DNA of 64,000 bases from Apoderus coryli (lineage: Eukaryota > Arthropoda > Insecta > Coleoptera > Attelabidae): assembly GCA_911728435.2 (NCBI GenBank), contig OU452201.1:23002001-23066000 (forward strand), written 5' to 3'. Of the stretch, positions 5,264 through 63,580 are shown piece after piece (position 1 is the first letter of the stretch; each line of letters starts with the position of its first letter). Both the position numbers and the translations under genes were made by a program. A model generated the notes under the pieces. The model searched no databases and had not been told where the DNA came from. It saw nothing but the letters and a program-made list of their open reading frames with translations.

Positions 5264-5340
5264 GTGCCACGTTAGTGCAATTGGTTGGAACACCTGAAAG
5301 GAGATTGGGAGATGTTGGTTCGAATCCAACATGTGATACG
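5264..5340 (+). repeat. tRNA-like / SINE-head module with Pol III A and B boxes
   Basis: TAGTGCAATTGG fits an A box and GGTTCGAATCC is a perfect B box, about 40 bases apart. The T-arm pairs (TGTTG with CAACA), the outer seven bases GTGCCAC and GTGATAC pair at 6 of 7 positions counting one G-T, and a T run at 5344-5351 could end Pol III transcription. The anticodon arm does not form a convincing five-pair stem, so a functional tRNA is unlikely. It is better read as a tRNA-derived SINE head or decayed tRNA pseudogene. Confidence 0.45.
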
Positions 5341-11017: not shown

Positions 11018-11961
11018 TTTGAAATGCCTCTTTTTAATTGGTTATCATATACTTTCCTTCTTCAAGGAGGGGTATTTTTCGTTGATACGAGGTGATTTGA
11101 AATGCCTTTGCATTCTAGTTTTTCTACAGCTCAGGCCTATTAGTTAAAGAATTATTTTAATCTTATTTTTAAGAGTTTGAACTTCTCAGTTTTGCTAAAG
11201 TTTAAGAATTGTTTTCTATAGTTCTTGTAAAGTATCATAAAGTACTATTTCAGTTTATAAGGTCCAGTTCATTCTCAGTTCCTGAAATAGTCGTCGTCGT
11301 TTAGGCGGTTTGGCCTCCCCTCACTTCGACCTGCAAAAGATCTTTTGTGAATCCTGAAATAGTAAGTTTTCTAAAGTTTCTTAATAGTGAGTCTACCTAA
11401 ACTTTTTCAGTAAGTTCTTTTGTTTATCCTTTTTGATTTCTCTAAAGTTAAAAACCTTTTTGTTTCTAATTCAGTCAGTAAAGTTAAAGTTGGTTTGTTT
11501 TGTAATTGTTTAATATTTCGAATAGTCGAATTTAAAGTCTGTTATAATTGTCAGATTACAATTATAGTTGAAGTTTTATGTGGAAATTCAGATTCAATTC
11601 ATTCAACTATACGTCATTATATTAATTTACCTTCACAAGTTTGTTAAATTAATATTTTCTTCCTTAGATTTTCATTTTCTTTTAATGTTTTATTCTTTTT
11701 ATTTCTATATATTTATTTCTTTTGTTGTAATTCATTTTTATTATATATAAATAAATTATTTTTGTGTCTTATGCTTTTATTTAAAATAAAGCTTCTAATT
11801 GGGGAAACCTTTAGATCTATCTTAGTAAACAAAAGGGTCATTATTTAAAGAGTGTTTTACATATAAATAAAGTGTGTTAAGTTACCGGTGACATATATAA
11901 AGTATATAGCGATCCACAGTCGTAAAGGTCAGTTAGTTTTATTTTAATACAGAATAATAAA
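11018..11961. repeat. 944-bp direct repeat, copy 1
   Basis: Begins TTTGAAATGCCTCTTTTT and runs to AATAATAAA, where copy 2 begins immediately. The two copies agree wherever I compared them by eye, and both contain the same 75- and 60-codon chance frames. No protein signature is present. Near the end of the unit is a TATA-like and initiator-like pair, and an AATAAA-type signal lies near 11746. Confidence 0.93.
11894..11936 (+). promoter_or_regulatory. core promoter-like TATA plus initiator (copy 1)
   Basis: TATATAAAG at 11895 is followed about 35 bases later by TCAGTT, which matches the arthropod initiator TCAKTY. This spacing suits Pol II. Because it sits in a repeat, it could be an LTR promoter; transcription is inferred, not shown. 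Confidence 0.4.
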
Positions 11962-12905
11962 TTTGAAATGCCTCTTTTTAATTGGTTATCATATACTTTC
12001 CTTCTTCAAGGAGGGGTATTTTTCGTTGATACGAGGTGATTTGAAATGCCTTTGCATTCTAGTTTTTCTACAGCTCAGGCCTATTAGTTAAAGAATTATT
12101 TTAATCTTATTTTTAAGAGTTTGAACTTCTCAGTTTTGCTAAAGTTTAAGAATTGTTTTCTATAGTTCTTGTAAAGTATCATAAAGTACTATTTCAGTTT
12201 ATAAGGTCCAGTTCATTCTCAGTTCCTGAAATAGTCGTCGTCGTTTAGGCGGTTTGGCCTCCCCTCACTTCGACCTGCAAAAGATCTTTTGTGAATCCTG
12301 AAATAGTAAGTTTTCTAAAGTTTCTTAATAGTGAGTCTACCTAAACTTTTTCAGTAAGTTCTTTTGTTTATCCTTTTTGATTTCTCTAAAGTTAAAAACC
12401 TTTTTGTTTCTAATTCAGTCAGTAAAGTTAAAGTTGGTTTGTTTTGTAATTGTTTAATATTTCGAATAGTCGAATTTAAAGTCTGTTATAATTGTCAGAT
12501 TACAATTATAGTTGAAGTTTTATGTGGAAATTCAGATTCAATTCATTCAACTATACGTCATTATATTAATTTACCTTCACAAGTTTGTTAAATTAATATT
12601 TTCTTCCTTAGATTTTCATTTTCTTTTAATGTTTTATTCTTTTTATTTCTATATATTTATTTCTTTTGTTGTAATTCATTTTTATTATATATAAATAAAT
12701 TATTTTTGTGTCTTATGCTTTTATTTAAAATAAAGCTTCTAATTGGGGAAACCTTTAGATCTATCTTAGTAAACAAAAGGGTCATTATTTAAAGAGTGTT
12801 TTACATATAAATAAAGTGTGTTAAGTTACCGGTGACATATATAAAGTATATAGCGATCCACAGTCGTAAAGGTCAGTTAGTTTTATTTTAATACAGAATA
12901 ATAAA
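11962..12905. repeat. 944-bp direct repeat, copy 2
   Basis: Follows copy 1 with no spacer and appears identical to it, including the TATA/initiator pair (about 12839-12880). After 12905 the sequence diverges (GTTTGATATAATTC). It could be a recent tandem duplication, two adjacent LTRs, or an assembly artefact. Confidence 0.93.
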
Positions 12906-13488
12906 GTTTGATATAATTCTTTTGTACTCATCAATTAAAACTTAAAAGTAAAAGCCGCTACTAAAACTTATTATCGAACCCGTGTACAGTTTAAATAGCA
13001 TAATCGGGGTTAACTTGGACTGAGGATTTTAATCAGATTTCTTTCTAAATTGTGAGAACAGTATACATGACATTAAATACCTACATAGATAGATGCCATT
13101 TTCATATTACGTATATTATGAAAAAGATTAATACATTAAGCCACAGTAAAAATATCTGACGTCGTTTAATTTGTTCTTGTAAAAATACAGATATAATGTC
13201 GCTGTTTGTATAGATCCTTGCACAGGACCAGATGATATTTATTTTATTCGACAAACAGAAAATCTCATTTCCAGGAAAAGCCAAAAATGATCAGAAAGGT
13301 CCATGATTATTTGAACAGACGTGGCAGTTGTGGTTAAGCTCAGAAACCCTAGCTGGGCGCAGTGGCTATGAAAACAAAAAAAGCTAATTAAAGAAGCGAT
13401 AAGTTTTGAAAATCATTAAAGTTAAAGTTTTTTTTCTTTCCATGGTCCGTTTCATCTGAGATCTGTAATATCGCTGCAGTCTAATGGC
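12906..13488. other. anonymous DNA
   Basis: Nothing recognisable between the 944-bp duplication and the small coding remnant. Confidence 0.4.
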
Positions 13489-19758: not shown

Positions 19759-20690
19759 TTCAGCATTGACATTGCTGCATTAAGTGAAACCAGAAGATCA
19801 GGTCGTCCAAAATCAGTTGTTGTTCCGAAAACCATTGATGCTGTGCGCGAACTGCTATTGCAAGAGATTGAGACAACCCTAGGCATTAGTGGGACCAGCA
19901 TTCATTCAATATTGCATGAACATTTAACTGTCAAAAAAATTTGTACGCGTTGGATCCCACACAATTTGTCAATCGCACAAAAAAAGGCTCGTGTCGATTG
20001 GTCGAAAGAAATGCTCAAAAAGTACGATCACGGTGCTTTGAAACACGTCTATGACATCGTGACAGGTGATGAATCGTGGATTTACGCGTATGAGCCCGAA
20101 AGTAAACAGCAGTCGACTGTATGGGTGTTTCAAGATGAGCCAAATCCAACGAAAGTTGTTCGCGCACGAAGCACTTCCAAGCAAATGGTCGCCTGTTTTT
20201 TCGGAAAAACTGGACATGTCGCAACCTTACCACTAGAACAACGCAGAACAGTCAATTCTGAGTGGTACACAACCATTTGTTTGCCAGTTGTCTTTCAAGA
20301 AATCAGGAAAACCAACCGCCGAAGTCGGATCACTCTTCACCACGGCAATGCGAGCTCTCACACATCGGCTCAAGCAACTGCATTTTTGAGCACCCAAAAC
20401 ATCGATTTGATGAGTCATCCGCCGTATAGTCCTGACTTGGCACTGAATGACTTCTTTTTATTCCCGTAGGTCCACGTTTTTTGACACCTGAAGAAGCAGT
20501 TGCTGCATTTAGAATGCATGTTTTGGAGATACCTCAATCAGAGTGGCAAAAGTGATTCGAGAATTGGTTCAAACGCATGCAAAAGTGTATAGACCTTCAT
20601 GGGGAATATTTTGAAAAGCAATAAAGTGATTTTCGATGATTAATATTTGTTTTTGTTCTCTAATCCCGAAATATAAAAGGCAACCCTCGT
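19759..20690 (+). mobile_element. mariner element, left end lost
   Basis: The right terminal repeat (20658-20690) reads CTCTAATCCCGAAATATAAA then AGGCAACCCTCG, a classic mariner end, with TA following. The matching left repeat is absent: homology begins inside the coding region at about 19759. The copy is therefore deleted on the left and cannot move. Confidence 0.85.
19774..20624 (+). pseudogene. mariner transposase (DD34D), inactivated
   Basis: The Tc1/mariner transposase excises and inserts at TA. The remnant enters at SETRRSGRPKSVVVPKTIDA, lacks the first helix-turn-helix and a short piece (about 7 residues) before EIETTLGISGTSIHSIL, then keeps the second HTH and most of the catalytic domain. 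Motif 1 is GDESW (D present). Motif 2 reads LHHGNASSH where D is expected, so the second catalytic aspartate is replaced by glycine. Motif 3 keeps HPPYSPDL. A deletion after FFLFP causes a stop (20467) and frameshift; the tail resumes as RFLTPEEAVAAFRMHVLE and ends EYFEKQ at 20622, with one more stop at WQK*F. Confidence 0.93.
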
Positions 20691-28374: not shown

Positions 28375-28845
28375 ATACGGTGTCGAAGATAAGAATGGAA
28401 TCTTGGATACGGTAGGAGCTACAATGTCTGTTAAATTCGAGAACAGTTGTATAATTTAAACACCTTTTAAATGGTGTTTTCGAAAGTAAACTAACTTTAG
28501 CTGATTTCGACAAGGTCTGGAAAACCAATTTTTTGCGATTTTGGTTTTTATATATTTATTTCTGACATTATTTTTCCAGATATAAAAAATTAAAGGCACT
28601 TTCTAATTGTTACTTTTTGAGGATAATTAGATAGTGTTTACAAATTTTCACTACGACGCCACGTTTCGTTTTCGAAAAACCAACATGAACTTCGTTTTTT
28701 TAAATACGGCCCTGGATTTTTATTGTTAAATTTAGAGCCAATTTCAATTCAAAAATATGTGGTGTATCACACGTAATGGTTTAAACAAGTTTTCAGTGTT
28801 TTTAGCTGTTATTTAAAATTATTCAAGAAAAATCGCCATAGTGGC
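28375..28845 (+). repeat. dispersed repeat family X, copy A
   Basis: Shares ordered blocks with 31041-31500: TTGTATAATTTAAACACCTT, TTTTGCGATTTTGGTTTT, TTTCTGACATTATTTTT and TTTTTAGCTGTTATTTAAAA. Non-coding as far as I can see. Confidence 0.8.
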
Positions 28846-31040
28846 ACTTATTTTGCGTAAAACAGGCGTAACATTTAAGGGGGTCAACTAAAACTTTGTA
28901 ATAAGTAGGTATCTACTCTTTTTCCCTTCGACTTTTTGTTATTTTTAGTATGATAACTTACGTGTGTGTGCCAAAAAATCTATTTGCAATGTTTGTGTTT
29001 TGTTCATGCCTTATTCACTCTGAAAATAATATTTTAAGAAGTTGAAAATTTAATAATAATAATAATCATAAAGCTTTATTTGCCTATATAACAATAAATG
29101 TTTTTCATAGCGGCCATTAGTTTCAATGCTGAGAGTGACTCTGTCTTACGAATATCTCATATGTAAACATCCCAGTTTTCACTTACGGAATTCAAAAATG
29201 ATTAAAGCACAGTTGTTTATATACTTTTTCATCTATGCTTGCAAAAATAGCCATATTACGGACTCATATTAGTGCTTCATTTTCGGCCTAGTTCCTGAAA
29301 ATCGCCTTGCAGACTATTTTAAATAATTATTTAAGTTGGTACCTAAATTTATATTGTTTGTTATCTTATGACAAATATCTATTGACAGAACTAATTAATA
29401 ATTATTAAAAATAATAATAATGAACGTGACCAATTTGTTTTGGATGATCCACTGTGACAATGGACTATTTGTTCAAATTAATAAAAATAATTACTATCGT
29501 TTCCAATATTTTTGTAGTATTTTGTAAATTTTTGTGACATTGAATTAGGTTTTTTAAGAATATGTGTTTTTAAAAAATTTAGTTTAGTACCTTGTTACAA
29601 AAAGCTATTAGGGTATTCTAGAACAGTTTAGAAATATCATGGATTTACAAAAATAAACAGTTATTAAGAAGGTTGGAGAATTCTAGAAGAATTGCATCCC
29701 ATTTGTCACTACAATATGATTATTTATCCGTGCAAGAAATCTGATACAAAACTTGTACTGAAGGGAAAATTAAGTAATCCCCAAATTTTAAAAATGCAAT
29801 TTTCTTTAGAATTGTCATAAAATATTTCTATTATAGGCACTTATGTTTTTACGACACCATTTTATTTTACGTTAGGTAGATATACGTTCAAAACAAATCA
29901 GTCCTTCCAAATTGTTTAATATAACGAATCGTGAAATTTTATTTACGAGCTATTTTGTAAAGCCACCGTCCCTTAGATGGTGTCCCTATGTTTCTAACGT
30001 GGAAATGCGGACCAGCTGTCGGTCGGATGGAACACAAGTGTTCCTTATTACAAACCGACATTTTACGACCTTCACGAGATGGCTTCTTGAGCTCCTGTCT
30101 CTCTGCGTACGTGCACGGGGGTTTACAATTTTACAGAGTGAAAAAGACAGAATATAGATATATTATATAATTTGATTGTATTGTGTTTTTTAACATAATC
30201 TGTAGAGGTTTTTGTTTTCTTTTGGATGCAGTTCCAAGAAATTTTTTTATCATTTTATTTCAGGATTATACGTTTATTTATAATAATAAACACAATGCAA
30301 CCAAATTTCTATTTGTTTTTAAAAATATTAATTTCTAAGTCAAGTCAAACTACTATTATTACCAGCAACAACCATATAGAAATGAATATAAAAAGTTTGT
30401 CATTTTTGGCAGTTTTTATATGTGAACCCTTTTTAACCTCTTTATGGACAATACCTTTATATCGGATATTATTCGATCCCAATTCTATAGGTAGCCGAAA
30501 TAAATATAATCGTTTTAGACAGTTATTTGTATTTAACTATATATCTAGATGATTTTACCATTTTTTTATACACTTCGCCTACTCCCTATGAGTCCCAAAA
30601 TCTAATCAGTTCCTCATTGCCTCCAATAGTGTTTTTGTATAACAAAATGCCAGTGTTGCAGAATAACAGACATTTTTTAAAACGCATGCATCGAAACCTA
30701 AATTTTAAAATGGATGAGTGAGAGTGTGCAAGAAACTAAATCAGTTTAATAGCAACGTTTCTGTTTTAATCCTCAGCCGGTAGATTTTTTAGGTCTAAAA
30801 ATATTAGAAATATGAATAGATATTATTGTGTATAGATTAAATTAATTTTATGTACGGTCGATCTTCAACAGAATGTGAAAAATTGAAATATGAGAAAATT
30901 GAAAATTGATATGTGACCAAAATGACTGCTGGCTTATGTATACACAAACATTTGGTTTAAATTAGCAGAGCTCCAATCTATTTCAGTGCAATCACTAAGG
31001 CATGCATCGACAGATACTGATAATTTCGTTTCGCAATGCA
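28846..31040. other. anonymous AT-rich DNA
   Basis: Includes a (TAA)n tract with an adjoining AATAAAG-type sequence on the minus strand near 29055-29085 that could be a short LINE tail. Open frames at 29912-30170 and 30226-30721 show no recognisable domain. Confidence 0.4.
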
Positions 31041-31500
31041 AGAGAAGAATGGGATCGCCTTGGATACTTGGAAATGATAGGAGTTACAATGGCATTTAAA
31101 TTAGAGAAAAGTTGTATAATTTAAACACCTTTTAAATGGTGTTTTTAAAAGTAAACTAACTTAAGCCGTTTTCGAGAATTTTTGAAAAAATGATTTTTTG
31201 CGATTTTGGTTTTCATTTATTTCTGACATTATTTTTACAGATCTAAAAAAATTGAAACCACTTCTTTTCGTTACTTTTTTAGGAGAATAAGATAGCGTTT
31301 ACAAGTTCTCACTATAACGGTTCGTTTCGGAAAAACCATCATCAACTATTTCTTTTAAATACGGTTCTGGATTTTTTATTTTTAGATTTAGAGCCATTTT
31401 CAATTCAAAAATAGGTGTATATCACATGTAATGGTTTAAATAAGTTTTCAGTGTTTTTAGCTGTTATTTAAAATTATTGAAGAAAAATCACCATAATTTT
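31041..31500 (+). repeat. dispersed repeat family X, copy B (left arm of inverted pair)
   Basis: Matches copy A in direct orientation and copy C (31688-32130) in inverse orientation across its whole length. With C it forms an inverted pair of about 440-bp arms and a 190-bp spacer. Confidence 0.82.
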
Positions 31501-31687
31501 GTACTTAACTGAATGAATGCAGAGTAGCAGGCTTTGTAAAAACATTCTTTCGTCGCTACTGACAATTTTTCATTATTATTTGACAATCTATGTGTGTCTC
31601 GGTGCAGTAAATTTTATTCGAGGTAAAGAAATTTAGTTGAAATTGTTGTGCCTTTTGAAGTTATTAACAAAACGCCTCTCTCAGATG

Positions 31688-32130
31688 AATTGAATAATTT
31701 TAAATAACAGCTAAAAACACCCAACAAAGTGTTTAAACTATTACGTATTACGTGTGATATACCACGTATTTTCGAAATGAAAATGGCTTTAAATTTAACA
31801 ATAAAAATGAGTTTTCAGAAGCGCGAAACGTCGTTGCGTAGTGAAAATTTGTAAACGCTATCTTATTCTCCTCAAAAATTAACAATAGAAACTGGCTTTA
31901 TTTTTTTTTAATATCTGTAAAAATAATGTCAGGAATAAATAAAAACTAAACTCGCTAAAAATTTTTTTTCAAAAATTCTCGAAAACGGCTAAAGTTAGTT
32001 TAATTTTGAAAACAACATTTAAAACACGTTTAAATTGTACAATTTTTCTCTAATTTAACCGACATTGTAACTCCTACCGTTTCCAAGATTCCAATGCAAT
32101 CCCATTCTCATCTTGGACACAGTGTTCATA
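31688..32130 (-). repeat. dispersed repeat family X, copy C (right arm of inverted pair)
   Basis: Reverse complement of copies A and B, including GTAACTCCTACCGTTTCCAA, ATCCCATTCTCATCTTGG and TTTTAAATAACAGCTAAAAA. It extends as far as the family's outer GTGTCCAAGATGAGAATGG end, the same outer limit as copies A and B. Confidence 0.82.
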
Positions 32131-43361: not shown

Positions 43362-43405
43362 AAAAGGAGATGTCAACCCCTTTTGTCGGGCATGAACTGT
43401 TCTGT
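43362..43405 (+). pseudogene. LINE RNase H segment, left of foldback insertion
   Basis: Reads KEMSTPFVGHELFC, part of the linker after RNase H in RNase-H-bearing LINEs (TPFxGPEPFC). The frame continues at 51409 (LFCSLGKHTYKEF) beyond the 8-kb element; the 9 bases CTGTTCTGT are duplicated. Confidence 0.75.
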
Positions 43406-43770
43406 ACCGGTGTGAAAATAGCAGCTAAAGATAGCAGCCAAAATATCCGAACAAGCACGAACGCCAGTAGCCTCGCACTATATGCGCGCGCACATCGTAT
43501 CGAGCCAGCGCTCATGACGGGCACGAACAACTTGCCACGTGGTAATAAACATATAATTTACAGACAAATAACTTATTTAAAAAATAATTCATAAAATTAA
43601 TAATGAAGTTAATATTTTGCAAAATATTGGACCAAAAGACAGTTTGAAGGTGGATGGTGAAAAAATATATTTTAATTTAAGCAAAACAGTATTGGGTAAC
43701 AAATTACGTACCCATTTGCATTAGTACAATAATTTAACTAAAAATTAGTGGAAGTGACGTAATAGGGCGT
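43406..43770 (+). repeat. outer unique part of left arm
   Basis: Mirrors 51045-51408 almost base for base; one clear difference is GCGCACATCG here against GCGCAAATCG in the other arm. It contains a chance open frame that therefore occurs twice (once per arm); I do not regard it as a gene. Confidence 0.9.
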
Positions 43771-46087
43771 TAAAAGATAGCAGCCAAAACCGTCCTAGTG
43801 GGGAAAACTTAATAACTCCGAAACTATTGACCCTGCCATATCGGGCATTCAGAGTGTGTTAGATAACAACATGGGCAATATAACGTATATACCCACTATC
43901 ACTTACAGGCCGTCGCAGGGGCGTACTAAAGCTTTAAAAGATAGCAGCCAAAACCCTCCTGATGGTGAAAAATTAATAACTCCGAAACTATTGAGCCTGC
44001 CATATCGGGCTTTCAGAGTATGTTAGATAACAACATGGGCAATATAACGTATATACTCACTATCACTTACAGGCCGTCGCAGGGGCGTACTAAAGCTTTA
44101 AAATATAGCAGCCAAAGCCCTCCTGATGGTGAAAAATTAATAACTCCGAAACTGTAGAGCCTGCCATATCGGGCTTTCAGAGTATGTTAGATAACAACAT
44201 GGGCAATATAACGTATATACCCACTATCACTTACAGGCCGTCACAGGGGCGTACTAAAGCTTTAAAAGATAGCAGCCAAAACCCTCCTGATGGTGAAAAA
44301 TTAATAACTCCGAAACTGTAGAGCCTGCCATATCGGGCTTTCAGAGTATGTTAGATAACAACATGGGCAATATAACGTATATACCCACTATCACTTACAG
44401 GCCGTCGCAGGGGCGTACTAAAGCTTTAAAAGATAGCAGCCAAAACCCTCCTGATGGTGAAAAATTAATAACTCCGAAACTGTAGAGCCTGCCATATCGG
44501 GCTTTCAGAGTGTGTTAGATAACAACATGGGCAATATAACGTATATACTCACTATCACTTACAGGCCGTCGCAGGGGCGTACTAAAGCTTTAAAAGATAG
44601 CAGCCAAAACCCTCCTGACGGTGAAAAATTAATAACTCCGAAACTATTGAGCCTGCCATATCGGGCTTTCAGAGTGGGTTAGATAACAACATGGGCAATA
44701 TAACGTATATACCCACTATCACTTACAGGCCGTCGCAGGGGCGTACTAAAGCTTTAAAAGGTAGCAGCCAAAACCCTCCTGATGGTGAAAAATTAATAAC
44801 TCCGAAACTGTAGAGCCTGCCATATCGGGCTTTCAAAGTATGTTAGATAACAACATGGGCAATATAACGTATATACCCACTATCACTTACAGGCCGTCGC
44901 AGGGGCGTACTAAAGCTATAAAAGATAGCAGCCAAAACCCTCCTGATGGTGAAAAATTAATAACTCCGAAACTATTGACTCTGCCATATCGGGCTTTCAG
45001 AGTGGGTTAGATAACAACATGGGCAATAAAACGTACATACTCACTATCACTTACAGGCCGTCGCAGGGGCGTACTAAAGCTTTAAAAGATAGCAGCCAAA
45101 ACCCTCCTGATGGTGAAAAATTAATAACTCCGAAACTATTGAGCCTGCCATATCGGGCTTTCAGAGTGGGTTAGATAACAACATGGGCAATATAACGTAT
45201 ATACTCACTATCACTTACAGGCCGTCGCAGGGACGTACTAAAGCTATAAAAGATAGCAGCCAAAACCCTCCTGATGGTGAAAAATTAATAACTCCGAAAC
45301 TATTGAGCCTGCCATATCGGGCTTTCAGAGTGAGTTAGATAACAACATGGGCAATATAACGTATATACTCACTATCACTTACAGGCCGTCGCAGGGGCGT
45401 ACTAAAGCTTTAAAAGATAGCAGCCAAAACCCTCCTGATGGTGAAAAATTAATAACTCCGAAACTATTGAGCCTGCCATATCGGGCTTTCAGAGTATGTT
45501 AGATAACAACATGGGCAATATAACGTATATACTCACTATCACTTACAGGCCGTCGCAGGGGTGTACTAAAGCTTTAAAATATAGCAGCCAAAGCCCTCCT
45601 GATGGTGAAAAATTAATAACTCCGAAACTGTAGAGCCTGCCATATCGGGCTTTCAGAGTATGTTAGATAACAACATGGGCAATATAACGTATATACCCAC
45701 TATCACTTACAGGCCGTCGCAGGGGCGTACTAAAGCTTTAAAAGATAGCAGCCAAAACCCTCCTGATGGTGAAAAATTAATAACTCCGAAACTGTAGAGC
45801 CTGCCATATGGGGCTTTCAGAGTATGTTAGATAACAACATGGGCAATATAACGTATATACCCACTATCACTTACAGGCCGTCGCAGGGGCGTACTAAAGC
45901 TTTAAAAGATAGCAGCCAAAACCCTCCTGATGGTGAAAAATTAATAACTCCGAAACTGTAGAGCCTGCCATATCGGGCTTTCAGAGTATGTTAGATAACA
46001 ACATGGGCAATATAACGTATATACCCACTATCACTTACAGGCCGTCGCAGGGGCGTACTAAAGCTTTAAAAGATAGCAGCCAAAACC

Positions 46088-46811
46088 AAAGCCAAATTTT
46101 TCATTTTTGATTTGGAAACTCAGAAGTTTTGTTTCCGTCAGTGTGTTGCGATCCTTTTATTTTGCACATGTAAACTCTGTGTTGAGCTACTCTATTGTGG
46201 TGTGGGGCAACTCACGACACATGGATGAAGTACTGATTTTGCAAATGAGGATCATTAGAACAATGATGTTTAAACCGGCAAGATTTTCTTGCCGTCAGTT
46301 GTTTAGGGATCTGAACATTTTGACGGTAACGTCAATTTATGTCCTAGAGTGTGTGTTCTATGTCTATTCCAACATAAATAAGTTCTCGAGCACTGGCCAA
46401 ATTTCCAACTATGAATTGAGACATGGATTAAATTTAAAATTACCTATTCACAGACTTTCTCTTTCAGCTAACAATTCCCTTATAATGCCTATAAAAATAT
46501 ATAATCATCTACCGCAGCATTTCAAATTAATTAAACCCCGGAAAAGTTTAAAAGTTCTGTAAAGGCATGGTTACTTCAATATAGCTTCTACTCAATAAAC
46601 GAATATTTTACAAATAACGATAACTGAAATCCTGGTCATGTAGTGTAAGGTACAATGCTTGTCTCTAGTGAATTTATTGTGAAATTCTAATTTTTGTAAA
46701 GGATGTAGTAACTGTCTAGTAGTCTTGTTTTATACAATTTATTGTTAGATGTTGTAATTTAAGCTAAGTATGACGCATTCTATGTACATTATTTTGTACC
46801 TAATGAATAAA

Positions 46812-46841
<30 letters not shown>
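46088..46841 (+). mobile_element. 5'-truncated LINE inserted in the satellite arm
   Basis: The insertion interrupts a repeat unit within CCAAAACC/CTCCTG and ends in about 24 A residues. AAAACC occurs on both sides and is a plausible short target duplication. Only the 3' end of ORF2 and the 3' UTR are present, the usual product of incomplete target-primed reverse transcription. Because it lies inside a repeat unit, it must be younger than the array. Confidence 0.88.
46107..46562 (+). pseudogene. LINE reverse transcriptase C-terminus
   Basis: About 150 codons are open, with SVLRSFYFAHVNSVLSYSIV and VWGNSRHMDEVLILQMRIIR, then RQLFRDLNILTVTSIYVLEC and YNHLPQHFKLIKPRKSLK. This is the thumb/C-terminal region of jockey/CR1-type RT (LRxxYxAxxxSxLxYGIxxWGNS). 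A stop follows LKVL, one frame short of the usual F/Y-rich end. The frame begins without a proper start because the copy is 5'-truncated; the few changes suggest a fairly young insertion. Confidence 0.88.
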
Positions 46842-46844
<3 letters not shown>

Positions 46845-47300
46845 CCCTCCTGATGGTGAAAAATTAATAACTCCGAAACTATTGAGCCTGCCATATCGGG
46901 CTTTCCGAGTTGGTTAGATAACAACATGGGCAATATAACGTATATACTCACTATCACTTACAGGCCGTCGCAGGGGCGTACTAAAGCTTTAAAAGATAGC
47001 AGCCAAAACCCTCCTGACGGTGAAAAATTAATAACTCCGAAACTGTAGAGCCTGCCATATCGGGCTTTCAGAGTGGCTTAGATAACAACATGGGCAATAT
47101 AACGCTTATACTCACTATCACTTACAGGCCGTCGCAGGGGCGTACTAAAGCTTTAAAAGATAGCAGCCAAAACCCTCCTGATGGTGAAAAATTAATAACT
47201 CCGAAACTATTGAGCCTGCTACATTAATTTTTCAGAATACGTTAGATAACAAAATTGGAAATATAACCTATAACTCATTATCACTTACAGGCGGTCGCAG

Positions 47301-49682
47301 TGTATCGCCCACCCAACACAATCTTGTTGCTGAAAAATATAATGCAATCTATTGTAGATCGCAATTTAAATGAACGGAAATTTTAGAAAAATTCATATTC
47401 TTCTTAACTTGGCTATATTTAATAAATCAATTTCAGGTACAAGGTACAACTAATATGTTATCTAATGGCCTAAATATACAGGGTGAATCACGACCTACAG
47501 TTTATTATACGAACTACTTCGGTTTCACCTTATAATTTGACAGTACATTAAAAAAATATATAGAATTTGTAGGTATTATTATTTCCTATACCTAGCTGTG
47601 ACGTTTTACGCTTATTGGAAATCGTTAAAAATTACACTTAGCATATTTTCCAATCAAAATATACAGGGTACTGCGTGTCAGAAAATGAAGTCGCGCGTAT
47701 CTATTTTATTAAAATTTATATATTCAATTCAGGACACCCTGTAGAATGTGAACTAACATTATTACCTTCATCTTTTTGTTTCGTAATTTTCCGAATTGTC
47801 CCATTAGTCATGATTCACACTGTATAAGTTAAAATAGGATGCACATCTTCAGCGCCTTTTGTAATTATATTGCAATAAAGGCATTATTATATTGTTTGAA
47901 TAAAACTATAATATACCTAAAATTACTATCAAAGTTCATCGAAGATATTTTACATGTATAGTATGGTAACCTGTATAAACAGCGTGCAAAGAGAATAACT
48001 TTTGTCGGTGGTATAGGTACGTACCTAAAATGGACAGAATCTCAGTTGACGCGGCGCAGCGGCATTTTCGACATAAAGGAATCGCGCTTTGGTAGCTTTT
48101 GGCGGCTTTGCGTTATAGACGGATAGGTTGGTAGGAAAATTAGGATTAGGATGATATTCCGACAATGCATTAAATTGTAAATATCATATATTTTCCGCTA
48201 TGCCACAAAATAATTTCTCTTCTAATTATATTTTATACATATAGATATACATTACCTATATAGATGTACATTTAGGTATTTAATATTTAATGTATTTTAC
48301 TTTCCCGCACATGGAAAGTATTGTCAACACGCTAACAAAAAATTGAGATAAAGACGGATATAACCATTTTGAAGTTCCCTGAGACGATTAAGACCATTTC
48401 CAGATGGAAGTCTGTCTGTCTTTGTGTATGTGTGTATTTTATAAGCAATAAAACAAATTTCGCACCTATGAAATCGTTGCATCAAGTCGTACGGACACCT
48501 AGTCCAATTTGGTGTGTTATAATTATTTATCTGGGGTAAAGCCATCTACTTCGTAATGAGAGGAAATGCATTTACGACGTGATCCTCACCCATATTTCTT
48601 GATAACAAAACGTTATACAATATCTAAAAATACAAAACACTATAAAATTGTTTAAATAGTAATATTTTTCTTTACCTGCATAATGCCAAAAAACAAACAA
48701 ACATTCTTTTTAATAAATACAATTTTCGATCGTTCGTTCTATAGCATTCAATTTTTGGTAATAATAGTAAACCAGCATTGAATATATCAAATCTACGTAC
48801 CTACCTACTTTCAATTTATCTAAATAGATAAAAACATACAAAATCAGTAATTACTTCTGTCATATTTAAAGAAATAATAATTTAAGAGATACGAGGTGTT
48901 ATTAAAAGTATTATATTATTTTTTTAAGGGAAATGGCTTTAGATGATTTATCCTTTAGCCACAGATTATCTAATAAAAAGTATTATTTTACTTACTTACT
49001 TTAATAGAAATAATTATATAAATTATATCTTAGTTACAAAAGTAAAAGGAGAAGGAGATATTAAGTATTTCTATGTTAAAAAATGTAATATACCTACTGT
49101 GTAGGATGCTAAAACGACCTAAATGTTTTAGTATTTATATTTATTTTGTGTAAATAAATTAAACTTTATATCTACGATAGATAAGTTTTTCATTTTACAT
49201 GTTTCATAATTTCTGTACCCTACGTGTTCCAGGTTAGGTTAACTTTCATACTATATCTAAATGGATTGTTAGGATTCTCCAACTGATTATTACACATTTT
49301 CTTGTATTTTATTTTGGTAAAATACAATTGTTTTTAATTATTTGCTTTTTTAGAATATATTGTGTAAAATTATTTTAAATATTAGGTATTTTGGATATTT
49401 TGAATCACTAGGGCAGCTGTTTTATATTTTTACATTGTGCAATTGATTAGAAATAATAGTAATATAATATAATTTTAAATATTTAGTTCATGTTCAGGTA
49501 TATAATAATAATTATTATTATGTAGAAATCAAGCTATTGATAATTATCTTCTGCGTTTAAATAAATAAATTCCTTTTAAAGCCGCAGAACCATTGGTTCG
49601 GGGTTATTTATTTTTATAAGTAGTTGCGTGATTTGGCTGCATTTTCATAGGCATTATGATTCTAACTTATTCGAAAAAATTA
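47301..49682. other. unique centre of the foldback element
   Basis: AT-rich, 2.4 kb, with no transposase-like frame. It contains several TACAGGGTG-type phrases (47480, 47664 and, inverted, 47745) that recur elsewhere in the window and may be remnants of other repeats. Confidence 0.5.
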
Positions 49683-51044
49683 ATGTGGCAGGTTCCATAG
49701 TTTCGGAGTTATTAAGTTGCTGCTATCTTTTAAAGCTTTAGTACGCCCCTGCGACGGCCTGTAAGTGATAGTGAGTATGTACGTTATATTGCCCATGTTG
49801 TTATCTAACATACTCTGAAAGCCCGATATGGCAGGCTCAATAGTTTCGGAGTTATTAATTTTTCACCATCAGGAGGGTTTTGGCTGCTATCTTTTAAAGC
49901 TTTAGTACGCCCCTGCGACGGCCTGTAAGTGATAGTGAGTATATACGTTATATTGCCCATGTTGTTATCTAACCCACTCTGAAAGCCCGATATGGCAGGC
50001 TCAATAGTTTCGGAGTTATTAATTTTTCACCATCAGGAGGGTTTTGGCTGCTATCTTTTAAAGCTTTAGTCGCCCCTGCGACGGCCTGTAAGTGATAGTG
50101 GGTATATACGTTATATTGCCCATGTTGTTATCTAACATACTCTGAAAGCCCGATATGGCAGGCTCAATAGTTTCATAGTTATTAATTTTTCACCATCAGG
50201 AGGGTTTTGGCTGCTATCTTTTAAAGCTTTAGTACGCCCCTGCGACGGCCTGTAAGTGATAGTGAGTATGTACGTTTTATTGCCCATGTTGTTATCTAAC
50301 CCACTCTGAAAGCCCGATATGGCAGGCTCTACAGTTTCGGAGTTATTAATTTTTCACCATCAGGAGGGTTTTGGCTGCTATCTTTTAAAGCTTTAGTACG
50401 CCCCTGCGACGGCCGGTAAGTGATAGTGAGTATGTACGTTTTATTGCCCATGTTGTTATCTAACCCACTCTGAAAGCCCGATATGGCAGGCTCAATAGTT
50501 TCATAGTTATTAATTTTTCACCATCAGGAGGGTTTTGGCTGCTATCTTTTAAAGCTTTAGTACGCCCCTGCGACGGCCTGTAAGTGATAGTGAGTATGTA
50601 CGTTTTATTGCCCATGTTGTTATCTAACCCACTCTGAAAGCCCGATATGGCAGGCTCTACAGTTTCGGAGTTATTAATTTTTCACCATCAGGAGGGTTTT
50701 GGCTGCTATCTTTTAAAGCTTTAGTACGCCCCTGCGACGGCCTGTAAGTGATAGTGAGTATATACGTTATATTGCCCATGTTGTTATCTAACCAACTCTG
50801 AATGCCCGATATGGCAGGCTCAATAGTTTCGGAGTTATTAATTTTTCACCGTCAGGAGGGTTTTGGCTGCTATCTTTTAAAGCTTTAGTACGCCCCTGCG
50901 ACGGCCTGTAAGTGATAGTGAGTATATACGTTATATTGCCCATGTTGTTATCTAACACACTCTGAAAGCCCGATATGGCAGGCTCTACAGTTTCGGAGTT
51001 ATTAAGTTTTCCCCACTAGGACGGTTTTGGCTGCTATCTTTTAA
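49683..51044 (-). repeat. 164-bp tandem repeat array, right arm
   Basis: Reverse complement of the left-arm unit, about 8 copies, with the same variant positions (GCTCAATAG/GCTCTACAG; AGTGAGTATG/AGTGGGTATA). The inner edge starts at TGGCAGGTTCCATAGTTTCG. Confidence 0.95.
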
Positions 51045-51408
51045 CGCCCTATTACGTCACTTCCACTAATTTTTAGTTAAATTATTGTACTAATGCAAAT
51101 GGGTACGTAATTTGTTACCCAATACTGTTTTGCTTAAATTAAAATATATTTTTTCACCATCCACCTTCAAACTGTCTTTTGGTCCAATATTTTGCAAAAT
51201 ATTAACTTCATTATTAATTTTATGAATTATTTTTTAAATAAGTTATTTGTCTGTAAATTATATGTTTATTACCACGTGGCAAGTTGTTCGTGCCCGTCAT
51301 GAGCGCTGGCTCGATACGATTTGCGCGCGCATATAGTGCGAGGCTACTGGCGTTCGTGCTTGTTCGGATATTTTGGCTGCTATCTTTAGCTGTTATTTTC
51401 ACACCGGT
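51045..51408 (-). repeat. outer unique part of right arm
   Basis: Inverse copy of 43406-43770, ending ATTTTCACACCGGT. Confidence 0.9.
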
Positions 51409-51890
51409 CTGTTCTGTAGCTTAGGGAAACACACCTATAAGGAGTTCAGATATAAAGAGGAAACAGACAGAGCAATACTCCGGAAAAATCTTCTTCTAAG
51501 AAATTCCGTGGAAACTTCATCCATAAAAGATCCAAAATCTGTTTGGATCTCATTAAGAATGAGCTACGTATGCTTACAGAATTTCTTACAGGACATTGTC
51601 GCCTTAGAGAACATATGTCAAGAATAGACATAGAAGAGAGCGACGAATGCAGATTCTGTAGGGAGGAGGAAGTAGCTCCTGATCACCTAGTAACAGAATG
51701 CGCCGATATCAGAAGCCAACCCAAGGAATACTTGTGGCATGAAATCGTGCAAGATGTCCCTGAAATCAGCCAAGCTACTGGAGTTCATAAGAGCTCTAGA
51801 ACTTGATAGAGAGTTGTAACTTGAGACACAAATTAAGTAACTCAAGACAGGAAATACAATGGACCATCTGAGGGTTTATTCTCGAGTTGA
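51409..51890 (+). pseudogene. LINE ORF2 C-terminus, right of foldback insertion
   Basis: Continues the split LINE: LFCSLGKHTYKEFRYKEETD, then after a frameshift near 51540 DLIKNELRMLTEFLTGHCRL, REHMSRI, CRFCREEEVAPDHLVTEC. TGHC...CxxC...HxxxxC is the zinc-knuckle-like tail that follows RNase H in I/R1-group LINEs. The sequence after about 51810 looks like the LINE 3' UTR. This is the same type of tail as at 15.57 kb. Confidence 0.82.
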
Positions 51891-55879: not shown

Positions 55880-56290
55880 AAATTCACGTGATTTAAAAAA
55901 AGGTATAACAAATGTTCAAAGTGACGTCCATTTTCATAAACACCATGTTGAAGCCTATTTTCGTATGATCTCCATAGCATGTCAGGTGTAATTGTGCTAA
56001 AAGCATCTCTAATCCTTTGCTTCATGTTTTCAGCTGTAGTGGGTGGAGTACTATAAACTACGTTTATTACATAATTCCTTAAGAAAAAATCTTCAGCTCC
56101 ATCCAGTATAGCGGTGGTAATATCGTGCATATATCTTTGACAAATTGAATTGAAGCGTTGTTCCTTTGCTTCATGTTTTCAGCTGTAGTGGGTGGAGTAC
56201 TATAAACTACGTTTATTACATAATTCCTTAAGAAAAAATCTTCAGCTCCATCCAGTATAGCGGTGGTAATATCGTGCATATATCTTTGAC
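55880..56290 (-). pseudogene. DDE transposase C-terminus (mariner-like) with internal duplication
   Basis: The minus strand reads FFLRNYVINVVYSTPPTTAE, then NMKQRIRDAFSTITPDMLWR and SYENRLQHGVYENGRHFEHL. This is the C-terminal tail seen in many insect mariner-related proteins (xxVYxTPPxTxENLKQRIxxAxxxITPxML...RLxxCxxxxGxHFEHL). The piece is duplicated: 56014-56162 is repeated at 56163-56311. The catalytic DDE domain is absent. A role in transposition is family knowledge; this copy is dead. Confidence 0.7.
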
Positions 56291-56311
56291 AAATTGAATT
56301 GAAGCGTTGTT
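56014..56311. repeat. 149-bp tandem duplication
   Basis: The segment CCTTTGCTTCATGTTTTCAG ... GAATTGAAGCGTTGTT occurs twice in direct succession and appears identical. Confidence 0.92.
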
Positions 56312-58114: not shown

Positions 58115-59554
58115 TTATATATCATTGTACAATTCTATTGATTTTAAATATCTTATAATGTTACTAGCATTTGTGGAGATTTCCGAGCACAGGATTGTCT
58201 TGATGTCGCCCTGAATACCACATTCGATTCGCTTGGAATGCAGGACGGGACATTCGCATAAAATATGTTCGACTGTAAGGCGATTCTCACATTGGCTGCA
58301 CGATGGTGGTTCTTCTTTCTTTAACAGATATTGGTGTGTCACTTTGGTGTGTCCTATTCGTAAACGTCTGAGAATTACCGTGTCTTTACGATTTACTGTT
58401 GGGAATTTTTGCGGAGTTGAGTAGGGTTCCAATGATGACAGTGTCGTTAGTGATGTGGACCATTGCATTTTCCATTTGGTGAGCGCTTTAGCTTTGAAAT
58501 AGTTCTTCAGGTCGCTCGCGCATTGGATGTTGGTTATGGCCATATTTTCGGTGGCACACGCCTCTTTGGCACATTGATCGGCCATTTCATTTCCTGGAAT
58601 TCCTATATGAGATGGGACCCATATTATTGTCACAATTTGATGGTTCTCTAGTAGGTCATTCCAGGTTGTATGTATTTGCTGTACAATTGTGTGCTTGGTA
58701 TGAACATTTTGAATAGCTTCCAGTGATGATAGTGAGTCTGTGCATATCGCGAATTTGCCACTTTGTCTTGGTAGAGTTTTTAGGGCGGTTATTATACCGT
58801 ACAGTTCTGCATTGAATATACTGCAGAATGCTGGAAGTTTGCAATTATTCAGCAAGAGATTTGGCGTCGTAACTGCACATGCAGTTGCCTGTGAGCTTTT
58901 TGAGGCATCGGTGTAAACAATCTTATCGTACTGTTCTCCATGTAGTAATTCGGCGAAAGCTTGTTGAAGTAATGTGGGTGGGGTTTCCGATTTGCTGAAT
59001 TTAAGGAGATATGTGTTGGTGTATGGGATTTGCTTAGTCCATGCAGGATATGGTGATATAGGAAGAGCAAGAGTGTGTTTTAGGTTTATGTTGTTCAATA
59101 GGGAATGTATTTTATCTATGATGTTGGTTGTCTGACTGGTGCGAGTTGAACGTGACGTAATAGCGAGATGAAGTGGATGTGCGGGATTTGCAGATACTCC
59201 TGCGGAGTAGTTGAGGAGTATAGTGTCTCTACGTATCGATAAGGGTAGTTCATCAGCTTCATGGTACAGTGAATCGGTAGGGCTGGTTCTGAATGCGCCA
59301 AGGCATAGCCGCAGTGCGCTGTTTTGAATAGTATCCAAGCACTTTAAATTAGATCGGGCTGCTGTACCGTAAATTGGGCTACCGTAGTCCAATTTGGAGC
59401 GAATGAGTAATCTATATGTTCGCAACAAAGTAACCTCCTCAGCTCCCCATTGCGTGTGAGACAAAGATTTTAGTATATTCATGCGACTAATGCATGCCTT
59501 CTTAGTTTCATTTATGTGCTGTTGCCAAGTTAATTTGCTATCAAATGTTAAGCC
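58115..59554 (-). pseudogene. LINE ORF2, 3' part: RT C-terminus, RNase H, zinc knuckle
   Basis: The frame resumes after the insertion with GLTFDSKLTWQQHINETKK, then LLIRSKLDYGSPIYG and LCLGAFRTSPTDSLYHEADE, the RT thumb region. RNase H follows: YTDAS (first D), NAELYGI (E), CTDSLS (D) and WVPSHIGIPGNEMADQ (last D), so all four acidic residues are present, about 190-300 residues from the internal ATG at 59482. The end carries CSQCENRLTVEHILCECPVL, the zinc-knuckle-like tail. RNase H removes the RNA strand during reverse transcription. No stops occur, so this half looks recently functional. Confidence 0.93.
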
Positions 59555-59556
59555 TA

Positions 59557-61366
59557 CACAGAGAAAAATCTATCATATCATGAACCATATGCACATTCAA
59601 TCAATGATAGCATATATTCCGTATTCCACAATCAAAGCTACATTTCTTTCAATTATACTTATATGATTAATTGCGAAATATATGACTTTATTGCTTTAAG
59701 TATAAGAATTAATTGACTTCCAATCAAATGCCTCAATTATAAGAATATATTGAAATTAAATAAAAAGTATTGATTGGACTAAGTGTCACTATCGTTGATA
59801 GAACATTTATTGCTTTTTAAGGGGAATACAGAAATTATAGACAGAATATATTTTGGTATTGAAATAATTGTTTTGTCATTTTAAATCAATTTTATATATA
59901 ATCCTGGAGAGAAATTAATTACTTAATTTAATAAAACTATCACGTTAACTAATTGTATGAAATAAAAGAAAGTTTTTATTCAAAAACAGTTTTATTAATT
60001 CTATAATACATTGTATTGTAATAAAAAAAATATTACTCTATAATCACAGTACAAAAAATAAACAATACATTAAAAAATGTATGTCATTCTAATACATGAA
60101 CATTGAACATGTACGACTAACAAAATATTAAACCAAATATCGTATTTGTGCTTTTTTACCATATCTTCGTAGTGTCCCACTCCCACTCGGTACTTTGTAT
60201 ACTGTATACCTACATCGTGTTAAAACAGGATATTTTGAATTTTGAGGTTATCTGAGGTTGCAAAAATGTATTCCATGCTGCCATGCTATACTGGTTAATG
60301 TGAAATAAAAAGCTTAATATTCATAACTTTTGAATGGAACACCCTGAATAGTTTTGTTAAAACGTTTTTATTATGCATTATAGGTACCTCTTAAATCATT
60401 TGTTGGCTAGACCGATCTTTAATAGTATTGTTCGAAAAGCTTACACAAAATTTTTTATAGTAAAAAACTTATGATTAGATATACTTAGTTAGGAGTAAAA
60501 CTTACCGGAGAATATTGGAATTAGTTTGTCCAATTCTGAGGCGTTTAAGAAGTCTTCCATAATATATTATTGCAGATTATAGAACTTAACTATAGACACG
60601 CGCTACCGGCACACAAATAGAATAAATATATAAATGTAACATAACCTATTGTTTTAAGCTTTGCTAGTGACTAGGGAGTTCCGAAATTTCCCGATACATC
60701 AGCCCGAAATCTACGTTTTTATATCAATGGTTTTGAATTCGTTTTATTATGATATCGGCGTATGAAAGCATTTTTTTTTTAAGTCAAAAACTAATATTTA
60801 CGAAGTGGGGTAGGTAGTACGAAAATCCAGTTTTTATTTAATTTATATACCTAAATCGATACATGCATGAGTGGAAAATGTTGGATACTCGACGTTTTGT
60901 GTTTCGATATATCGATGAATTTAGCCCGGCCCAATAATAACTTAAGGTTGTCCCAACAATAAGAAGTATTGACTTAATATTATTTAGTTTATTTAAATAG
61001 TAGAATATGATAGCGAGTAAAATTTGATTTTGTTAATTCAATGATATATATCTAATAATCCGAGTAGAGAAATAATATTCTTCCAATGCTTTTTCTTGCT
61101 TATCGTAATATAACAATATTTGAAATAATACAATTGCAATATTAGTTGCCAATTATTACTGTAATCATTGAAAGAAAAAATATATCTGTTTTGTGCCTAA
61201 CATATATTAAATTGAATTTCAATAATATCTGGAATGTCGGATTAAGTATATATTTAATGTTGGCCGAATTGTAATCTAATGAGTTAAGTATTACTGTCAT
61301 TAAACCAAAATAGAGGCAATCAAACATATCGCTAATATTGATATTACAGTAAGATTTTTTTCTGTG
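59557..61366. mobile_element. 1.8-kb TA-flanked non-autonomous insertion in LINE ORF2
   Basis: The ends CACAGAGAAAAATC (59557) and GATTTTTTTCTGTG (ending 61366) are inverted repeats with one mismatch. Both are flanked by TA (59555-59556 and 61367-61368), which fits Tc1/mariner-type insertion. Removing it with one TA joins TACAAAATAC to TAGGCTTAAC and restores YKILGLTFDS in frame. The interior is AT-rich with no transposase frame, so mobility must come from elsewhere. Confidence 0.85.
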
Positions 61367-61368
61367 TA

Positions 61369-63556
61369 GTATTTTGTAACTGCTGACTACCTCGAGATTA
61401 ATGCCATTTAGTGTGATCGTCGGATGGGTTATGTTATGTCTTTTGCTAAAGATCATAACTTTGGATTTAGGGGAAGAAAATTGTAAACCTGTGCTAGATA
61501 ACCAAATATTTAAATTATCTATTGTTTTTTGAAGTAGGCGGCATGTAGTAGTTACATTTTTTCCTGAGCTATATAATATTAGATCGTCTGCGTATAGACC
61601 ACATTTGACAGGTGGAGTAGCGTTTAGAGCAATATCATTTATTGCCAATATAAATAGAGTTGTGCTAATGACCGAACCTTGTGGTACGCCGTTCTTTGGG
61701 TAAATTGGTACTGACTTCTTGTTGTTGACTACAACTTGTGCGATTCGATCTTTCAGAAAGTTTTGGATAAACCTTAGGCATCTACCATTTATGTTCGACT
61801 TATAGAGCTGTTTAAATATAGTGGCATGGCTTACGCAATCAAACGCGCTTTTTAGGTCAAGGAACACTGCAATTGTGTTCTGTTTCTGAGTAAACGATCT
61901 GGTAATGTCGGATTGTAGAGCACACAAATGATCTAGGGTACTGCGATTTGGTCTAAATCCAGATTGTGTAGCGTTTAAGATTTCATTTCTATCTAAGTAC
62001 CAGAGGAGACGGTTGTTGATCATTTTTTCAAGAAGTTTGCACATTGTGCAAGTAAGTGAGATTGGGCGAAAGGATCTTATATCGGCAGATACTGCATCAG
62101 TTTTCTTAAATGGTAATATGTAGGATTTCCGCCATATTGTGGGGAGCTGTTCCATTGTCCATATATTATTGAATAGCTCTAAGAGTTTGTGAAGGCTTGT
62201 TTGGGTAAGATTCTTGATAAATATAGACGGGATATTATCGGGACCAGCTGCTGAGTTTTTGCATGAAGCGAGAGCTGAGTTTAGTTCCTCTATTGAGAAA
62301 GGGAGGTTAAGAGAGTCTGACCCTACATAAGTGGTTTGGTCGGTATGTTGTGCTGGTTGAACTGTATTATTGTCGGTAAATTTTGATTGGAAATATTCAG
62401 CAAATGTATCTGCGATTTTTTGGTCATTAGTTATTTGTTCATTATTGTAAATGAGTGCTGGAATCTTATGAATAGTGTTGTGCCCTTTTATTTGTTTAAT
62501 TTTCTTCCAGATCTGGCTTGGAGGTGTGTTTGAGGTCATAGAACTTACGAAGTTTGTCCAGGATTTTTTCTTAGCTTCTTTTAAAACTCTCCTGCTTTGT
62601 GCTCTCAGTTTTTTGAAGTTAATAAAGTCGTCTTGGTTACGTGTCCGTCTGTAGCGATTTAGTGCTCGTTTGCATGATGCGACAGCTTTGCCACACAAAT
62701 CGTTCCACCAGGGTACTCTTTTCTTTGAGAAGTCTATAGTGCATTGACCCACATAGATGTCAGCGGATTGAGTAAGGGTGTTAGAGAAATGAGTTACGTC
62801 ATCCTCAACATTGCCAGAGAAAGCCAACTGATCTGTTAAAAATTGGGCATGGTGTGAGAAATTAGACCAATTAGCTTGTTTAAGGTTCCACCTTGTTACA
62901 GTGTTCGGACTTTCAGCGGCATTGTCGGAAATTATGATTGGAAAATGGTCACTATCGAAGAGACTATCTGATGTCTGCCAGCTTAGCGAAGATACTGTTC
63001 TAGGGTCGGTAAAGCTCAGATCTATGGTTGAGAACGTTCCGGAGGCTAAGTTTGCATGTGTGTAGCTACCCGTGTTTAGGAGACACAGGTGGGAGTTTAT
63101 GATAAGATCATCCAATATTTTACCTCTATCTGAAGTGTAAGAGGAGCCCCAAAGGGGGCTATGTGCGTTGAAGTCCCCGACCAGTATGAATGGGTTGGGG
63201 AGCTGATCCAGAAGCTTCTTGATGTCATCGGGAGCTAGAGTAAAATTTGGTGGTATATATATGCTGCATACTGTAGTCTTTAATGGACACCACACGCTTA
63301 CAGCAACTGCCTCAAAACTTGTAGTAAGAGGTATTTTTTCGGAATAAATATCCATGGAGACAAATATTGAAGTTCCTCCGCTAGCGCGCATGTGCATTGT
63401 TCTAATAAAATCATAATGAATGAATCCGTTTAGGTGTGGGTTATGGGACGCTTTAAAGTTAGTTTCTTGTAAACACATAATATCTGGGCCTATCTCGTGA
63501 ATTAATTGTTGAATTCTTTCTAGGCGGGAGAAAAATCCCGCGCAGTTCCATTGCAC
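61369..63556 (-). pseudogene. LINE ORF2, 5' part: AP endonuclease and reverse transcriptase
   Basis: About 730 codons from MQWNCAGFFSRLER to SSYKIL. The endonuclease has N4 (WNCAG), E31 (LQET), GDFNAHSPLWG near residue 126 and SDHFPI near 201, the residues of APE-type LINE nucleases that nick the target. The RT has FRPISLT, TQSGFRPNRST, motif A FLDLKSAFD at 565, GVPQGS at 623 and YADD at 655-658, all intact. The open frame then runs on into the 1.8-kb insertion, where it adds unrelated residues. The first ATG is chosen because the N residue needed for catalysis lies four residues in; ORF1 ends only 24 bases upstream. Confidence 0.95.
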
Positions 63557-63580
63557 TAATGTGAATTTGATATTCAGAAT

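Follow-up and report, generated by a model that had tools for sequence, protein, structure and literature searches.

The Foldback (FB) element of Drosophila melanogaster is flanked by 9-bp duplications and has inverted arms built of repeats, with units much shorter than those described here. The present element, which spans 8,003 bp (43406-51408) with inverted ends in a 64-kb window (the whole stretch of DNA that was analysed), shares with FB the 9-bp duplication and the repeat-built inverted arms, but is made of far longer units. This contrast had been put forward in the original prediction; the difference in unit length does stand, but it gives no argument for novelty, as units of about 220 bp occur in Tetris and of about 210 bp in Galileo subfamily F.

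Tetris, from Drosophila virilis and D. americana, is described as a non-autonomous element with a flanking domain of up to 866 bp, tandem units of about 220 bp and an inner domain, with a variable non-coding middle, target-site duplications of 8-10 bp and a number of units that varies between alleles (PMC4079207). According to the same description, a 37-bp stretch, about 80% similar, is common to the flanking domain and the unit, and the unit also forms satellite-like arrays outside intact elements, with up to 66 copies (PMC4079207). The same origin for the unit as the one considered here, together with a role as binding sites, was proposed earlier by the Tetris authors, who also cite the view that the foldback structure arises from different lineages (PMC4079207). 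A 2025 review lists Tetris with other satellites that arose from short arrays carried within transposons (PMC12628747). Judged from the published description, our element resembles Tetris in its apparent lack of autonomy, its outer domain, its satellite-size units, its non-coding middle, its duplication length and the stretch common to end and unit. It differs from Tetris by its left arm, about 3.1 kb long without an inserted fragment, where Tetris arms are given as up to 1,735 bp, and by its unit of 164 bp instead of about 220 bp; given this unit length, we regard it as Tetris-like in plan without filing it as Tetris. We judge Tetris of D. virilis to be the closest precedent, the plan being already known and not of a new kind; no closer element was apparent in the literature searched, as judged by titles and abstract openings.

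Other described elements share part of this organization. Galileo, a foldback-like member of the P superfamily, includes a subfamily F with internal tandem repeats of about 210 bp, the numbers of which differ between the arms of a copy (PMC3573991); its accounts give 7-bp duplications, up to three units and a known transposase (PMC3688188, PMC3573991). In Galileo of D. buzzatii, the repeats are reported to hold secondary transposase-binding sites, bound by the THAP domain (PMC3688188). As far as these accounts go, the present element resembles Galileo by its long arms, its internal tandem repeats and the unequal unit numbers of its two arms, and differs from it by a 9-bp instead of a 7-bp duplication and by 17 and 8 units instead of up to three. 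In Aedes aegypti, the active mosquito element Muta1 and other Mutator-like elements are described with 8-9-bp duplications and arms that contain repeats, in units of 9-15 bp, with autonomous copies and many non-autonomous derivatives whose middles are unrelated (PMC5225508). The Tm1 Mutator/Foldback family of root-knot nematodes has, in its description, mostly 9-bp duplications, composite arms made of outer motifs and tandem repeats, units of about 14 bp and asymmetric 7-bp end motifs (PMC3169594). On these descriptions, our element agrees with Muta1 in duplication length and repeat-built arms, and with Tm1 in its 9-bp duplication and composite arms, but differs from both by its 164-bp units.

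Boundaries and foldback structure

The features of the locus are as follows (a strand is given where the feature has one).
43397-43405: left target-site duplication CTGTTCTGT, exact 9-bp repeat
43406-43771, + strand: left outer module of the inverted arm, starting with ACCGGTGTGAAAATA, 364/366 identical to the right module
43418-43443, + strand: ATAGCAGCYAAA motif in two adjacent copies, close to the element end, the second inside the 16-bp word AAGATAGCAGCCAAAA that is repeated in the units
43772-46087, + strand: left array of 164-bp units, L1 to L14 complete and L15 as far as its first 20 bp (tandem-repeat detection and unit layout)
46088-46840, + strand: A-tailed LINE-like 3' fragment of 753 bp splitting L15 (A-tail, target duplication, 161-aa frame)
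46841-47300, + strand: left array resumed, from the remainder of L15 through L16 to the diverged L17, which is innermost (unit layout)
47301-49660: middle domain with a GC content of 28%, its longest stop-to-stop frame being 73 aa (six-frame examination of 47301-49682)
49661-49731, - strand: right innermost partial unit R9 (49661-49718 against 47189-47246 of L17, 51/58 bp)
49732-51042, - strand: right array, units R8 to R1 (tandem-repeat detection and unit layout)
51043-51408, - strand: right outer module, inverted copy of the left module
51409-51417: right target-site duplication CTGTTCTGT, exact 9-bp repeat
51418-51806, + strand: target, LINE 3' coding sequence with a frameshift (weak zf-RVT match and 62% match to an unnamed protein)

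The predicted limits of the element, 43406 and 51408, proved correct to the base, as did the 9-bp target duplications, the exact copies of CTGTTCTGT being accompanied by a single further one on the + strand of the window, at 39157. A shift of the boundary by one base destroys the duplication, the length of which is therefore 9 bp. Both ends read ACCGGTGTGAAAATA inwards. These ends had been called perfect inverted repeats, which is true of the first 15 bp, identical at both ends, but the 2 mismatches found over 366 bp make the repeat near-perfect, in line with the near-identical outer modules, of 365 bp, that had also been announced. The longest ungapped inverted arm pair is 1338 nt long and 97% complementary, far above chance, with between 0 and 10 differences per 100 bp, unevenly spread. 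Long inverted arms made of an outer domain and tandem repeats, placed around a middle, and an exact flanking target-site duplication of 9 bp are both present, as expected of foldback elements. The foldback-type transposon originally proposed is thus supported, with its succession of outer module, tandem array and middle, and we consider a foldback-type DNA transposon with separately changing arrays as the best explanation, with a probability of about 0.85. The duplication agrees with the 8-10 bp (mostly 9) of the Mutator superfamily and departs from the 7 bp of Galileo and the P superfamily.

Within the middle, no stop-to-stop frame longer than 73 aa was found in the six frames of 47301-49682, and the element therefore looks non-autonomous. 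It is visible as a single copy, no second one being found in the 64-kb window, and no source of transposase for it was seen in the window.

Target LINE and inserted fragment

The case for an insertion within a LINE comes from the duplication and from the right flank. This flank gave a zf-RVT match (E 0.006, 17.6 bits) below the cutoff of 27.5 and 62% identity over 81 aa to the unnamed protein (P0001). A LINE frame continuous in the absence of the element had been predicted; one frame is indeed open across the joined empty site, from 43316 to a stop at 51627, but the LINE homology to the right of the site (51456-51806) lies in a different frame, which means that the target LINE is now frameshifted. 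To the left, about a dozen codons at most, recognized by eye, are possibly LINE. No LINE homologue spanned the junction, the alignment to the one protein found beginning to the right of it, and a search for a duplication flanking the target LINE yielded unconvincing candidates of 11 bp only. In the preferred reading, the element sits in a LINE that is decayed at present.

The 753-bp fragment that breaks the left array was absent from the original prediction. The 6 bp AAAACC of the unit are found on both sides of it, as a target duplication that is ambiguous with the A-tail. Pfam returned no match at E 0.01 for this fragment, and its 161-aa frame presumably resembles LINE C-termini. From the A-tail, the target duplication and this resemblance, we take the fragment to be the 3' end of a LINE. 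It may have split the left array at the present locus or at an earlier site.

Arrays and history of the two arms

The expected 164-bp period was found by Tandem Repeats Finder in three stretches, with 14.1 copies at 43770-46087, 2.8 at 46841-47300 and 8.1 at 49719-51044. Laid out unit by unit, the left arm has 17 units after its outer module, one of them split by the insertion and the innermost diverged, while the right arm has 8 and a partial innermost one; the earlier estimate of about 16 and 8 was thus short by one on the left and right for the whole units on the other side. The unit was found nowhere else in the 64-kb window.

Of the 26 units or part units, 22 were used for the comparison of the arms; the cap units L1 and R1 were left out, as were L17 and R9 for being diverged or partial. 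These 22 inner units were not separable by arm, with 5.61 differences within arms vs. 6.14 between them (permutation p 0.12). The cap units L1 and R1, by contrast, have five common variants that occur in 0/22 inner units, one of the five being present also in the partial innermost unit R9. At the other extremity of the arrays, the innermost units end in a common diverged tail (score 81, where 200 shuffles scored 27 at most). The common cap variants and the common innermost tail indicate homology of the two arms over their whole length, from cap to innermost unit, with a copy number altered separately in each.

Differences between the arms amount to 2/366 in the outer module, 5/164 between L1 and R1, about 3.7% in the inner units (6.14 differences per unit of about 164 bp) and 7/58 at the inner edge. 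This outward-falling divergence fits exchange between the two arms, if most intense on the outer side, and fits equally a tighter constraint acting on the ends. In the left arm, L2-L5 and L11-L14 differ at only 5 positions over four units (p 0.002), which is evidence of a block duplication within this arm; three block lengths were tried, without correction of the p values, the other two giving p 0.011 (three units) and p 0.20 (two units). Block repeats within the right arm were not significant (p 0.89 and 0.61), nor were ordered blocks across the arms (p 0.088 for two units, 0.80 for three and 0.40 for four), so that exchange between the arms is one reading among others.

Motif common to the end and the units

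The outer module and a reference unit have in common a 17-bp exact word near the element end, where 2000 dinucleotide shuffles gave 15 bp at most, and a 12-bp word, GATGGTGAAAAA. Within the element, the 16-bp word AAGATAGCAGCCAAAA occurs exactly 24 times, in 22/26 units and in both outer modules, and it has no occurrence in the remainder of the window, even when two mismatches are allowed. The motif TAGCAGCYAAA, located near the element end, is present in 28 copies, 25 of the 26 units and three sites in the outer modules, and is likewise absent from the rest of the window. Selection on this shared motif was considered and found to be unsupported, its conservation among 24 units being no better than that of other parts of the unit (68 of 148 windows of 17 columns had as few variable columns or fewer). 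Since the repeats of Galileo bind the THAP domain of its transposase, the 164-bp units are suggested to hold extra binding sites, and by this analogy we somewhat favor TAGCAGCYAAA as a putative transposase-binding or enhancer site.

Origin of the element

Inverted tandem arrays are difficult to assemble, and the inverted arms could in principle have been made by a fold-back read or a misjoin. The arms nevertheless differ in unit number (17 vs. 8), in unit variants and by an insertion on one side, and exact 9-bp duplications flank them, whereas a fold-back read should yield identical arms. An artefact is therefore highly improbable, even if the unit counts could still be wrong. More weight, although still clearly the lesser share, goes to a foldback-like element of another superfamily in which repeat-built arms arose by convergence. 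Foldback structures come from different lineages according to the view cited with Tetris (PMC4079207), Galileo, a relative of the P element, is such a case in its published accounts (PMC3688188, PMC3573991), and no transposase gene was seen in our element; on the other side, a 9-bp duplication suits Mutator/Foldback elements as these have been described (PMC4079207, PMC3169594, PMC5225508), when that of Galileo is given as 7 bp (PMC3573991). From the duplication length and the plan alone, we consider the assignment to the Mutator type as probable.

The 164-bp unit could also be a genomic satellite that existed beforehand and was captured by the transposon, instead of having grown from its own end. 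Indeed, the link between outer module and unit consists only of the 17-bp exact word and GATGGTGAAAAA, their gapped alignment scores 34, where 200 shuffles have their 95% point at 29 and their maximum at 36, and the array has a GC content of 42% vs. 33% for the window. However, the 17-bp match coincides with a near-terminal motif that is repeated through the units, and both arms begin and finish with the same special units, which makes such a capture rather unlikely.

Under the preferred reading of a foldback-type transposon, a Mutator-like transposase acting in trans probably mobilized a non-autonomous element of the Tetris plan. This enzyme would act on the ACCGGTGTG ends and make a 9-bp staggered cut at insertion, the insertion itself being shown by the exact duplication. 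A unit carrying the motif would have been duplicated into an array in the arm, and the arrays then lengthened and shortened independently in the two arms, presumably through unequal exchange or slippage. The likeness of the arms could go back to a single ancestral arm, or be maintained by exchange between them. With its clean nesting of LINE, foldback element and inserted fragment, the locus is an example of the building and transport of satellite-sized tandem arrays by a mobile element, and the binding-site hypothesis can be tested directly because the units hold the end motif. The spread of satellite DNA by such an element, put forward in the original prediction, is a conjecture, one copy being visible in the window. 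Should the 164-bp unit also form free arrays in this genome, the element would join Tetris as an instance of satellite DNA arising within foldback elements. It is a speculative and rather doubtful proposal that the element acts as a vehicle seeding satellites outside Drosophila, with an end motif in its unit, an array recruiting the transposase, dispersal and the founding of free arrays in the host, as an independent Tetris-like case.

Other collections and surrounding sequence

The 15-mer pattern of the ends occurred at 19 loci of viral contigs, all of which were treated as chance: BLAST of the outer modules against them gave only short matches, the longest at the end being 24 bp at 87.5% (L017) and the others 15-16 bp. 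A unit 22-mer and a 24-mer taken from the outer module had 0 occurrences in the viral contigs, as did the unit 22-mer and a unit 37-mer in contigs of prokaryotic genomes; since both collections are expected to hold little insect DNA, these absences carry little weight.

Several further features were observed elsewhere in the window. A direct tandem duplication of about 0.95 kb, with copies 99.5% identical, lies at 11018-12923, above the period limit of the tandem-repeat tool. A 149-bp unit is present in two exact head-to-tail copies at 56013-56311, overlapping a 105-aa open frame; this may reflect recent duplication or else a fault of the assembly. At 28396-32115 there are three related stretches, each of about 440 bp and 77-83% identical, two of them in the same orientation and one inverted. 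Two long frames on the minus strand at 58115-63580, with endonuclease and reverse transcriptase domains at 61142-63580 and an RNase H domain at 58115-59569, look like a LINE. A 236-aa frame at 19759-20469 matched Transposase_1 with 25.9 bits (cutoff 24), which we take to be of the mariner type, and DDE_3 below the cutoff. Together with the LINE matches, the Transposase_1 match suggests a eukaryotic host, probably an insect. Lastly, ARAGORN called a tRNA-Ser (GGA) at 5266-5339, with 33.9 bits against the Rfam tRNA model (cutoff 29), which may be a tRNA-derived SINE.
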